From positions 28,961 through 92,960 of the forward strand of contig JAENZQ010000014.1 in NCBI GenBank assembly GCA_016841185.1: a stretch of 64,000 bases of DNA. Direction: 5' to 3'. Position numbers and translations under genes: made by a program. The stretch's first letter is position 1, and each line of letters begins with the position of its first letter. Shown piece after piece: positions 17,304-63,301 of the stretch. The stretch is from Anaerovorax odorimutans. Its GTDB lineage: Bacteria > Bacillota > Clostridia > Peptostreptococcales > JAAYPU01. The notes beneath the pieces were generated by a model that worked only from the letters and a program-made list of their open reading frames with translations, was not told the DNA's origin and did no database searches.

Positions 17304-17419
17304 TCATTATATTACAAAGAATTGTTTCCAATCAAGATGATAGTCAAAGGCTGTGATGAATTAAAACTGTCATGTCAGCCATTGCTATATATTATTTTTT
17401 TAGAAAGGAGGTGAGAAAA

Positions 17420-19042
17420 GTGAGTATCCAGGAGATTATGTCAATGCAGCAAGAAGCTGTATCAGGTTTGCTGACGGGCTCAAAATCAAAAGCAACCGGT
17501 TTAGATTTCAACCAATTAATTGCACAGATAATCACTTCAAGCAAAAAGGGAAATTCAGAAGAAACGGCATACAGACCGTTTTCCGGTATGAAGGATCTGT
17601 ATCAGGATTCAAAAATATCTTTAGAAAGCGGTACAGATGTACTTTCACTTATTTCAGGACTGGAACTTTCTGGGAATCTGAATGAAGGGCAAAATGAAAA
17701 GGAGAATGCTTCGGAGCTTTCGGAGTTACAGGCGGTACTTTCATATGCGGTGCAAGGAATATCCCATAGCGATTCAGAGGTACAGAAAGCTTTCATGGAT
17801 ATATTGAATCGATATGCCCGGGAAGAGGGTCATGGCGAAATGAAAGACGTTTCGGACAACATGGCAATACAGTTACAGTTAAAAGCAGAGAATACGACAG
17901 CCTCTTTTAGAGGACCTGAGCAGCATATGGTAAATCTGATTACTCAATGGATGAAAGGAACAGAAAAAGACGGTTTGCCGAATTCTATGGCACAAGAAGG
18001 AGATAGAACGGAAAACCTGCAGAGTCTATTAAATCCCGGTTTACAGAAAAGACAGCAAGAACAAAATGCCGTGGAAAAGCTTCCGGATCAAATATCAAAG
18101 ATGGATTTATTGAAGGAACAGAAAACAAACTTTAGGGAGATATTACAACCCGGCGAAAAAGCACCTGAATTCGCAAAATCTGTTCAGGAATCCGGGAAAA
18201 ATGTTGAAATTTCAACATATACACCTGAAAGTTTCTCGGATTCCATGATAAAACTGAAAGAACTGTCTGAAAAGTTCATCAATGATAATGCTGCAGCCGG
18301 CAATAAAGACATGGGGAAAACAGAAGATCTTTCCTCTAAAATTCAAAAAAATCCGGAGATAACCGGTATATCCGCTCGTTCTGTGAGTGGTGATGATTCC
18401 GCACAGCTTCAGAAAGAGGACCATTCTCAGGGAAAAGCATTTCATGAGAAGGCAACAGACACTTTCAAAAATACCGAGACAGAAGAGCCTACAGACCATT
18501 TAAAACCTTCATTCCATAAATCTGTTGAGACAGATTCTGTGGTGAAGGAAACCAACGGGCAGGAAATTTTGTCCCAATCCGGAAAAGTAAAAAGCAGCAA
18601 TAGCCCTTTGATAAGAAATCTGGGCGACATACAGATGGAAATAATCAAAAAAACCGGACAAATGAGCGAAAAGGAAAAATCCGTTCTGACGGTGAAGCTT
18701 CAGCCGGAAGAACTGGGAAGGATGAAAATAGAGCTTGAATTAAAAGACGGTACCGTTCACGGCAAAATATTCGTTGAAAATGAATCCGCAAAAAACGCAC
18801 TTCAGCAAAATATTCAAGCCATGCGCAGCCAGATGAAAGAGCAGGGGATTTCTGTGGGGAATCTGGAGGTGGATATCGGAAATGAATCTTTCCAAAACTT
18901 TGAAGACCAACAGGAAACGATGAAAGAAGCAAACCGCTCTTTTTGGGGTTCCGGAAAACAATATGAAGCAGCTATCGACGATTTCAATACCGACGTGAAC
19001 AATAATTCGAACATGGTAAACCGACTAAATGCATTGGCGTAA
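17420..19042 (+). CDS. fliK: Flagellar hook-length control protein FliK
   Basis: C-terminal LTVKLQPEELGRMKIELELKDGTVHGKIFVENESAKNALQQNIQAMRSQMKEQGI; GTG17420 has RBS aaaggaggtga. Confidence 0.9.
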   Translation: MSIQEIMSMQQEAVSGLLTGSKSKATGLDFNQLIAQIITSSKKGNSEETAYRPFSGMKDLYQDSKISLESGTDVLSLISGLELSGNLNEGQNEKENASELSELQAVLSYAVQGISHSDSEVQKAFMDILNRYAREEGHGEMKDVSDNMAIQLQLKAENTTASFRGPEQHMVNLITQWMKGTEKDGLPNSMAQEGDRTENLQSLLNPGLQKRQQEQNAVEKLPDQISKMDLLKEQKTNFREILQPGEKAPEFAKSVQESGKNVEISTYTPESFSDSMIKLKELSEKFINDNAAAGNKDMGKTEDLSSKIQKNPEITGISARSVSGDDSAQLQKEDHSQGKAFHEKATDTFKNTETEEPTDHLKPSFHKSVETDSVVKETNGQEILSQSGKVKSSNSPLIRNLGDIQMEIIKKTGQMSEKEKSVLTVKLQPEELGRMKIELELKDGTVHGKIFVENESAKNALQQNIQAMRSQMKEQGISVGNLEVDIGNESFQNFEDQQETMKEANRSFWGSGKQYEAAIDDFNTDVNNNSNMVNRLNALA

Positions 19043-44427: not shown

Positions 44428-44511
44428 ATAGAAGATAATGAGCAGGTTCTTCTTGAAAAATAGAAATACAACCGTTATAATATAAGTGCAAAAATAAATA
44501 ATAAATATGTA

Positions 44512-44625
44512 ATCTTCGGGGCAGGGTGAAAATCCCTACCGGCGGTGATAGTCCGCGAGCACATTGTGTTGAGCCTGTGAAATTCAGGTACCGACAGTTA
44601 AAGTCTGGATGGGAGAAGATAAATG
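44512..44625 (+). promoter_or_regulatory. FMN riboswitch (RFN element) aptamer
   Basis: atcttcggggcagggtgaaaatccctaccggcggtgatagtccgcgagc..gagcctgtgaaattcaggtaccgacagttaaagtctggatgggagaagat; P1 ATCTTC/GAAGAT. Confidence 0.98.
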
Positions 44626-60553: not shown

Positions 60554-61231
60554 TTACAATGAAATAACTTCGTATTCATGATCATATAAATTGATGCTCA
60601 GCATCTTGTTTCGCAAAATATCCCCTCTTTTTAAAAGGACTTTTAAGACTTCACCTACCTGAACAGAAGCTACCAGCGCAGGGGTAAAAGAGGGATTTCC
60701 CAAATCTGCTTCAATACCATGGTCCGTATCTTCCGGATAGATTTTGTTCAGAGTATTATCTCCGGGTAAAATGGTGCACACCTGTCCGTACCATCCTGCT
60801 ATTGCACCGTGTACAAGGGGAATATTCTGTTCCCTGCAATGTCTTTGAAGTATTTTTCTGACGGGAAGACTGTCCAAAGCATCGACGATAACATCATGAT
60901 TGTAAATGATATCGGTAGCATTTTCCTCATTAAGAAATTCTGAAATAATATTTATCTTTACATTGGTATTGACTTGACGCATCCTTTTTTCGAAAGCTTC
61001 GGCTTTCTTTGTTCCAATGTTTGTTTCAAGGGCTAATATTTGCCGGTTTAAATTGGATATTTCAATAACGTCTCCGTCAACTGCCGTCAGATGTCCGATA
61101 CCTAATCTCCCTAAAAACTCCAGAATGTATCCCCCAAGTCCCCCGCAGCCGATAACACATACGCTGAAATCCTTTAGCTTTTCATTTTCCTCTTTTGAAA
61201 GCATATTCATATTCCGACTGTACCGGTTCAT
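60554..61231 (-). CDS. HesA/MoeB/ThiF family adenylyltransferase (E1-like)
   Basis: RYSRNMNMLSKEENEKLKDFSVCVIGCGGLGGYILEFLGRLGIGHLTAVDGDVIEISNLNRQIL. Confidence 0.93.
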   Translation of the reverse strand: MNRYSRNMNMLSKEENEKLKDFSVCVIGCGGLGGYILEFLGRLGIGHLTAVDGDVIEISNLNRQILALETNIGTKKAEAFEKRMRQVNTNVKINIISEFLNEENATDIIYNHDVIVDALDSLPVRKILQRHCREQNIPLVHGAIAGWYGQVCTILPGDNTLNKIYPEDTDHGIEADLGNPSFTPALVASVQVGEVLKVLLKRGDILRNKMLSINLYDHEYEVISL

Positions 61232-61338
61232 TTTGACACCTCCGATATTGGCTAATTTATTAAATTGAATTATATCATAAAAAATTGATTTTTAAATTTC
61301 TTGTGCTATAATACTTATATACATTAATTGCATAGTTT

Positions 61339-61436
61339 AATTTTCCGATCTGATTTACCTAAAGCAAAGGCTATGGTGTATCAGACGATGGGTATCTGCA
61401 GAAATGCATATGCCTCCCGTGTTTGGAAAGGAAAAT
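61339..61436 (+). promoter_or_regulatory. Moco/Tuco-type riboswitch aptamer
   Basis: attttcc...ctgat ttaCCTAAA gc aaag gc TATGG tgt atcag...GGTATcTGCA-GAAA-TGCAtATGCC tcccgtgtttggaaaggaaaat; 3' core TGCCTCCCGTGTTTGGAAAGG resembles the moaA-leader (Moco RNA) core as recalled; P1 ATTTTCC/GGAAAAT. Confidence 0.8.
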
Positions 61437-61454
61437 AATTTCTTTATTTGTCAT

Positions 61455-61480
61455 TAATCCTTTCCGAGGATTATTTTTTT
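61455..61480 (+). terminator. Expression-platform terminator of the Moco-type riboswitch
   Basis: taatcct ttccg aggatta ttttttt; tcctttcc (61458-61465) is complementary to ggaaagga (61425-61432). Confidence 0.78.
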
Positions 61481-61872
61481 TCAATTCAAGCTAATACAGG
61501 AGAACAGAATTATAAAATCAAAAAAGACCCATCCAATGAATAGGATTATATCGGAAAATGCATAGGAATTGACCGGCTGATTATAAGGAGCCATTGTTCA
61601 TTCCCAATGCGAAATAAGAAAGGGAGCAATTAGAAGTGGGAGAAATATATAGAAGGATACGCAAGCCTTTTTACTGCTGATTTCCTTTAATAGAGAATTT
61701 ATAGCAATATCCTGTTATCCATATATGTTTCTCCTGCTTCGATTTTTTTCTTCTATTATTTCCGTACCTTTTGGACGGCTTTGGGAATACTTTTTCATAG
61801 ATGGCGTTTTGTATGTTTTGCAGCAGCAGATAAGTCATATTGGTTATATTATAAAAAATCAGAGTAGACTTT

Positions 61873-61905
61873 AAGGCGAGTTTTGTTCGCCTTTTTATAT
61901 TTTTT
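61873..61905 (+). terminator. Terminator upstream of MATE gene
   Basis: aaggcga gttttgt tcgcctt tttatattttttt. Confidence 0.8.
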
Positions 61906-61981
61906 TAGAAAACTATTGACGACGCATATAGGAAGTCGAGTATAATCATTGTATAGGTAGAAAAGGAACAGGTAACGAAAC

Positions 61982-63301
61982 ATGTCAACAAAATATGACT
62001 TAAAAAATGATACCATAGGAAAATTATTCTCACATTATTTCTTTATGTCCACAGCGGGCTTGATGGTGCTTTCGGTCCATATTATTTTAGACGGGATATT
62101 CATTGGTCACGGAATCGGTAGTAATGGTCTTGCTGCTATTAATATCGCCGGGGTCGTATTCCCTTTTTTAAATGCTGTTGCATTTACCATAGGATTCGGG
62201 GCAGCAGCGGCTATTTCTGTCGAATTTGGTGAAAGCAGGAGTGAAAAAGCGAATGCTATTTTTAATCAAGCCTTTGTATTATCGGTCATTATTTCCATTA
62301 TATATACAATACTCTCCGTTTTATTCATAGATAAAATAGTTTTTTTACTGGGCTCTAATAAAGTACTTTTTCAAGGAGTAAAAGACTATCTACTTATTTT
62401 TTCACTTTTTTCTTTCTTTTATGTATCAGTAATTATTTTTGAAAGTTCGGTAAGAAACGACGGACAACCTCTTAAGTCGATGATTTCCCTGATCCTTGGA
62501 GCGGTTACCAATGCGGTTTTGGATTATGTATTTATTTTTATTTTTCACTGGGGATTAAAAGGAGCGGCCTTTGCCACAGGTATTGCTCAGATGGTAAGTT
62601 TTGTTTATTTGATCTTTCATTTTCTTATGCATAAAGGGCAATTATTTTTTTGTATTTATAAACTGGATAAAGAAGATATTAAACGTATATTAAAAAATGG
62701 TCTTCCAAATTTTATTTCTCAAATCTCCATAACACTTGTCATTATTGCGGGCAATTGGATTGTCATTAATATGATTGGAGAAATCGGAGTAGCTGCTTTC
62801 AGTATTCTGCTGTATGTAAATGAATTTATGATTCTTGGATTTGCCGGTATTGCGGAAGCATTACAGCCCCTTGTAAGCTTTAATTACGGTGCAAAACAAT
62901 ACGACAGGGTAAAGACTGTTGTTCGGCTATCGATTTATGTCTCTCTGATAATAGGTCTTGTCATGCTCTTATTCAGTGTTCTAAGACCTGATATGATTAT
63001 AAAGCTGTTTAACGACGAAAAAAATCTTATTGATCTGGCATCCCATGCTATGCGTTTATTTTTCCTGGGTATTTTGTTTACCGGAATCAATATGATATAT
63101 GCCGCATACTTTCAGGCGGTTGAAAAATCCAAATCATCCATTATTATACAGATGTTAAGAGGCTTCGTATTTGTAGCTTTAGCTCTGTTGATACTGCCGG
63201 AGTTAATGGGACAAAACGGTTTATGGATATCTGTTCCGGTAGCGGAATTCCTTACCTTTATTGTAACCATTCTTTTAGTAAAATCAAATAAATTGTCTTA
63301 G
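61982..63301 (+). CDS. MATE family efflux transporter
   Basis: 12-TM pattern; LSVHIILDGIFIGHGIGSNGLAAINIAGVVFPFLNAVAFTIGFGAAAAISVEFGE; AEALQPLVSFNYGAKQYDRVKTVV. Confidence 0.93.
   Translation: MSTKYDLKNDTIGKLFSHYFFMSTAGLMVLSVHIILDGIFIGHGIGSNGLAAINIAGVVFPFLNAVAFTIGFGAAAAISVEFGESRSEKANAIFNQAFVLSVIISIIYTILSVLFIDKIVFLLGSNKVLFQGVKDYLLIFSLFSFFYVSVIIFESSVRNDGQPLKSMISLILGAVTNAVLDYVFIFIFHWGLKGAAFATGIAQMVSFVYLIFHFLMHKGQLFFCIYKLDKEDIKRILKNGLPNFISQISITLVIIAGNWIVINMIGEIGVAAFSILLYVNEFMILGFAGIAEALQPLVSFNYGAKQYDRVKTVVRLSIYVSLIIGLVMLLFSVLRPDMIIKLFNDEKNLIDLASHAMRLFFLGILFTGINMIYAAYFQAVEKSKSSIIIQMLRGFVFVALALLILPELMGQNGLWISVPVAEFLTFIVTILLVKSNKLS

Follow-up and report, generated by a model that had tools for sequence, protein, structure and literature searches.

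The window analysed here, a stretch of 64,000 nucleotides (G000:C7:28961-92960), comes from a 3.56-Mb draft genome of 88 contigs that is rated 100% complete. The part of interest holds a Moco/Tuco-type riboswitch that lies divergent from an intact ThiF/MoeB-like gene and is followed on its own strand by scraps of tupA and tupB, an intrinsic terminator and a gene for a MATE-family transporter. These features are given below, with comparisons made to G001, the closest relative compared, which belongs to the same GTDB family and to another genus. The window also contains an FMN riboswitch (RF00050, 113.6 bits) at 44508-44624 on the + strand.

60554..61231, -: divergent ThiF/MoeB-like adenylyltransferase, intact (Pfam ThiF 3e-56; 76% amino acid identity to G001)
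61285..61312, +: promoter-like site upstream of the riboswitch, TTGATT - 16 nt - TATAAT with an extended -10 TG (consensus scan)
61340..61436 (Rfam bounds 61332-61449), +: Moco/Tuco riboswitch aptamer (RF01055), P3-less (cmscan; G001 ortholog)
61425..61465, +: antiterminator pairing of GGAAAGGA (61425-61432) with TCCTTTCC (61458-61465), predicted from eight pairs at -10.7 kcal/mol
61455..61481, +: switch terminator, predicted hairpin 61455-61473 with a T8 tail (fold -6.8 kcal/mol)
61491..61527, +: tupA ribosome-binding site and first codons, remnant (aligned locally to G001; score equalled or exceeded by 5 of 1000 shuffles)
61540..61617, +: tupA 3' end, remnant that runs to the ancestral stop codon (61540-61583 outscores all of 1000 shuffles; tblastn match EPLFxPNAK)
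61636..61788, +: tupB 5' part, remnant with frame-breaking indels (blastn, tblastn)
61725..61874, +: 49-codon ORF (MFLLLRFFSS...), a fusion of two tupB scraps (blastn, tblastn and shuffle alignments)
61790..61833, +: tupB last codons, remnant (unique best place in 2.45 kb of G001 covering the tup region; 0 of 300 shuffles)
61873..61907 (stem 61873-61893), +: second intrinsic terminator, between the remnants and the MATE gene (9-pair stem, then a T-rich tail; -9.5 kcal/mol)
61982..63301, +: MATE-family transporter, syntenic 3' flank of the deleted operon (MatE 6e-42; 73% DNA identity to G001 17371-18917)

The riboswitch aptamer

A preliminary description of this DNA, made from its letters, had proposed a riboswitch of the Moco/Tuco type. 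The Rfam check agrees, as cmscan returned a match to RF01055 at 61332-61449 (+) with 80.8 bits (E 5e-18), far above the gathering threshold of 36, in an alignment that runs the full length of the model (positions 1-135 of 135). No Rfam family besides RF01055 was detected by cmscan at the riboswitch locus. All conserved core elements are present. Specifically, P1 is formed by ATTTTCC at 61340-61346 and GGAAAAT at 61430-61436, exactly as had been described, and a GNRA tetraloop on P4 (GAAA) is accompanied by a receptor in P2. Two details of the earlier description need correction. The receptor that it placed in P2, CCTAAA/TATGG, is there, but P2 is a 10-pair helix with one mismatch and not a helix of five pairs. 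Similarly, the GAAA-capped hairpin that it called P3 exists, but this element is P4 in the published nomenclature (PMC2408646) and the true P3 stem is absent, with the P3 positions deleted in the cmscan alignment.

Absence of P3 has been associated with users of the tungsten cofactor (Regulski et al. 2008, PMC2408646), a study in which tupA was the marker gene for calling tungsten users. Lacking P3, the window riboswitch does not belong to the P3-containing (Moco) subtype. It groups with the P3-lacking (Tuco) subtype by this absence and by an association with tungsten and MPT, which comes through the G001 ortholog and the local tup remnants only and not through any intact gene here.

A search for decay of the aptamer revealed none. 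The window aptamer is 90% identical to its G001 ortholog without a gap, and it scores higher than this functional ortholog (80.8 versus 77.8 bits). CCTAAG is the commonest form among the readable receptors; CCTAAA also occurs elsewhere, with a complete P2 in one locus (L024) and with one P2 mismatch in another (L012). Both the single P2 mismatch and the receptor variant are shared with other aptamers and are therefore not signs of decay.

The expression platform

The hexamers and spacing of the promoter-like site upstream of the riboswitch are retained in the G001 ortholog. Note that the consensus scan found as many sites in this region as are expected by chance. At the other end of the aptamer, the preliminary description had pointed to an exact complementarity of GGAAAGGA and TCCTTTCC, which we also found, and the identical 8-nt pairing occurs in the G001 ortholog together with an equivalent T-tailed hairpin. 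This pairing excludes both P1 and the terminator, and the hairpin at 61455-61473 with its eight T competes with it. When the aptamer is folded alone, P1, P2 and P4 form. If the folded sequence also includes what follows, up to but excluding the 3' arm of the terminator, the structure of lowest energy pairs GGAAAGGA with TCCTTTCC and P1 is lost. A generic terminator scan did not list the switch terminator.

Conservation of these mutually exclusive pairings in G001 supports the earlier proposal that the ligand switches expression OFF via transcription termination. With the cofactor bound, P1 would form, the terminator at 61455 would then form and transcription would stop. With the cofactor absent, GGAAAGGA would be free to pair with TCCTTTCC and RNA polymerase would read on. 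Judged from its sequence, this OFF-type terminator switch is apparently intact.

Remnants of a deleted tup operon

The orthologous riboswitch of G001 is divergent from the same ThiF gene and is followed by tupA-tupB-tupC-moeA-moeA2-moaA-moaC-MOSC, with moeA2 being a moeA-PBP fusion. The 3' flank beyond MOSC consists of the same MATE and NuoE-like genes as are present in the window. The distance from the riboswitch to the MATE gene is ~8570 nt in G001 versus 546 nt in the window, a net loss in the window of ~8.0 kb relative to the G001 operon, and mogA, which is next after ThiF in G001, is also gone from the window. ThiF orthologs are found in or beside Moco operons in G001 and in a further relative, G029, where the gene sits within a riboswitch-led operon. 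Among the 29 riboswitch loci of relatives that were examined, 13 have tup genes (tupA) 3' of the riboswitch, indicating that tup is an ordinary ancestral target of this RNA. As a separate observation, the G001 copy of the MATE gene (L036:17371-18692) lacks one base that is present in the window and is thereby thrown out of frame close to its start, which reflects either a sequencing error or a pseudogene.

What is left between the riboswitch and the MATE gene is four pieces that span 61491-61833 and are collinear with the tupA-tupB order. The piece at 61491..61527 does not conserve the ATG start of G001 tupA, and the piece at 61540..61617 carries an in-frame stop and a small deletion relative to G001. 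The stretch from the end of tupA into the start of tupB (61588-61788) aligns to G001 at 81% over 208 columns (blastn, E 1e-43), and a TupB query picks the tupB scrap out of the whole window (tblastn, E 9e-6). The last codons of tupB at 61790..61833 are joined to the 5' piece through an internal deletion of ~0.5 kb. Farther downstream, 61841-61915 shows no significant similarity to the G001 operon, with 64 of 300 shuffles scoring as high. Disrupted, collinear remnants between conserved flanks, with no intact copy elsewhere, identify this as a relic (pseudogene) locus. Mismatches by codon position number 46/20/107 of 226 sites per position in ThiF and 10/7/12 of about 51 in the tupB scrap, so the scrap is flatter, with sites too few for dating the loss.

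The preliminary description had stated that no ORF of 60 or more residues lies between the riboswitch and the MATE gene. This holds on the + strand, where only the 49-codon ORF is listed. It had also weighed a decayed Mo/W-cofactor locus against an RNA that may drive something unrecognised. The former is borne out by synteny together with the tupA and tupB sequence remnants. As to the latter, the 49-codon ORF is no unrecognised gene, since it consists of the two ends of tupB brought together by the internal deletion. We examined 61480-61975 for a hidden target. It contains no intact gene, and none that a simple sequencing frameshift could have masked, since ~8 kb of the ancestral operon is missing. 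A functional small gene in 61480-61975 was also considered and rejected, given that the 49-codon ORF joins two tupB ends and has no Pfam or NCBIfam match.

Absence of Moco pathway genes from the genome

Searches of the whole genome found no second copy of the riboswitch/operon locus and no TupA, MoeA, MoaC, MogA or MOSC. TupB is likewise missing from the genome beyond the scrap, the nearest permeases being PstC/PstA, which lie beside PstB and PhoU. With TupA absent, TupB present as a remnant only and PstCA as the nearest permeases, relocation of the tup operon within the genome was rejected. No MoaA was found in the genome apart from distant radical-SAM proteins. These candidates for a retained MoaA, of 337, 471 and 460 aa, have low identity and were judged by eye not to be MoaA. 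Since the assembly is in 88 contigs, there is a small chance that a gene was lost in a gap.

Moco riboswitches were found in 45 of 97 genomes. MoeA is present in 43 of these 45 carriers and is absent only in G000, the genome of the window, and in G072. G000 has two further Moco riboswitches besides the one in the window, and it retains three molybdenum-hydroxylase domain (MoCoBD_1) proteins. One genome thereby combines Mo enzymes and Moco riboswitches with the lack of any detectable Moco biosynthesis or Mo/W oxyanion permease.

As to the molybdenum-hydroxylase-type proteins, two that are fused and ~950 aa long are located on C22 (L035:5766-8887 and L108), one of them directly behind a Moco riboswitch. 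A third is located in a split-subunit cluster on C45 (L106 9093-12782), and presumably resembles the split-subunit nicotinate dehydrogenase.

What the riboswitch controls now

We consider it highly probable that the window RNA is a genuine, structurally intact P3-less riboswitch that was once the leader of a tupABC-moeA-moeA2-moaA-moaC-MOSC operon, most of which was deleted (~8.0 kb net) with scraps left behind. The role of the ancestral operon would have been tungstate uptake and molybdopterin synthesis. Deletion would have left the leader, the ThiF gene and out-of-frame tupA/tupB scraps that end before an intrinsic terminator. The only product of read-through at this locus would be a short non-coding RNA, expected to stop at the 61873 terminator. 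The switch therefore most likely controls nothing now, and the RNA is most likely a relic leader without a target. The absence of decay in the aptamer could mean that a function has been retained; recent loss of the operon fits equally well.

The best surviving alternative, which we regard as improbable, is that the deletion fused the riboswitch to the MATE gene, such that read-through at low cofactor would raise MATE expression. On the riboswitch strand the MATE gene is indeed the first one downstream, at a distance of 546 nt, and it may once have closed the operon, since it starts ~85 nt after the MOSC gene in G001. However, the terminator at 61873-61893 separates the riboswitch from this gene and is stronger than the switch terminator (-9.5 versus -6.8 kcal/mol). 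The MATE gene also has a putative promoter of its own, a TTGACG-19-TATAAT site at 61916-61946 that was recognised by reading, has non-ideal spacing and was unlisted by the promoter scan. Furthermore, we know of no link of the MATE family to Mo/W, which we count against such control.

Control of a functional small RNA or of a 49-residue peptide, as in a riboswitch-regulated ncRNA, is very improbable. The promoter-like site, aptamer, switch terminator and second terminator do bound a potential transcription unit of roughly 165 or 580 nt, but the body of this unit is made up of the tupA/tupB scraps, the only ORF in question is two tupB ends fused with no family match, and RF01055 is the only Rfam family at the locus. 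Finally, although the draft is in 88 contigs and the contig of the window ends ~2.1 kb past the remnants, it is barely credible that the operon is present in the organism and missing through an assembly or sampling artefact, given that a single continuous contig carries the expected flanking genes to either side of several separate small remnants, which keep the expected order and contain frame-breaking indels, and that no fewer than eight genes of the pathway (two moeA-domain genes, moaA, moaC, mogA, MOSC, tupA and tupB) are missing genome-wide despite the 100% completeness rating.

A riboswitch-led ECF operon

The second G000 riboswitch (L034 6342-6463; locus L034:6342-9339, C65) leads genes for an FMN_bind protein and two lipoproteins with sulfite-oxidase-type domains, after which a YkoE-like ECF S component is cut by the contig end. 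In eight of eight homologous operons from other public genomes (L088-L095), a Moco riboswitch precedes the genes on their own strand, at distances that range from directly upstream to several kb. The complete ECF operons encode an S component, EcfA, EcfA', EcfT, a MobB-like protein and a kinase-like protein. An ECF operon is also located in G072 (L105), directly behind the only Moco riboswitch of that genome. Regulski et al. (PMC2408646) noted that S. wolfei has P3-less RNAs close to putative sulfite oxidases.

The lipoprotein is encoded in 11 of 97 genomes, and each of the 11 carries a Moco riboswitch (p about 1e-4 in a hypergeometric calculation done by hand). It is found in both of the MoeA-minus riboswitch carriers (G000 and G072) versus 9 of 43 MoeA-positive ones (p about 0.06, also by hand). 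An alignment of eight sulfite-oxidase-domain lipoproteins contains no invariant cysteine beyond the one in the lipobox, and the lipoproteins are therefore unlikely to be catalytic molybdoenzymes.

These observations make the ECF operon a candidate importer of Moco or of a molybdopterin precursor. Such import would explain why biosynthesis could be lost. We tentatively raise the possibility, which we hold to be somewhat doubtful, that import of Moco or a precursor by the riboswitch-controlled ECF operon, for the remaining molybdoenzymes, is what led the species to lose both Mo/W uptake and Moco synthesis, a change from making the cofactor to scavenging it. Our search of open-access literature turned up neither a Moco-linked ECF importer nor any bacterial Moco importer.

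In two bacterial MAGs a gene that by eye is TonB-dependent outer-membrane receptor-like is located between the Moco riboswitch and the lipoprotein gene (L091:1415-3346 and L092:7224-9044). A receptor of this kind would be a hint that the substrate is larger than a simple oxyanion.

Comparison with known systems

The window RNA belongs to a known class and is ordinary as such; what is unusual is its evolutionary state, which is well documented. It resembles the Tuco variant of the Moco RNA (RF01055, PMC2408646) in its full-length match to the model, in P1, P2 and P4, in the GAAA tetraloop with its receptor, in the absence of P3, in a terminator-type expression platform and in having tupA as its ancestral target. 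It is unlike this variant in that it has no intact target gene and resides in a genome without the tested biosynthesis genes for its presumed ligand.

The closest counterpart is the leader of the tup-moe-moa operon in G001 (C94), an orthologous RNA that is 90% identical and gap-free, with the same divergent ThiF gene, the same MATE and NuoE-like 3' flank and the same 8-nt antiterminator pairing. The difference is that the operon is intact in G001, whereas only scraps are left in the window. The locus is a clear fossil in which the riboswitch is intact and the target it lost can still be named, from collinear scraps.

At the level of the genome, the comparison is with the 'orphan molybdoprotein' organisms, which have Moco enzymes without a complete Moco biosynthesis pathway. 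These were recorded without an explanation, and the source of their cofactor is an open question (PMC6147048). G000 is like them in having three MoCoBD_1 proteins without MoeA, MoaC or MogA, without MoaA beyond the distant radical-SAM proteins and without a TupB-like permease except PstCA. It differs from them in that the scar of the deletion is directly visible, and in that its cofactor riboswitches persist, one of them leading an ECF-type operon. This surviving riboswitch-led operon provides a testable candidate answer to the question of where 'orphan molybdoprotein' organisms obtain their cofactor.
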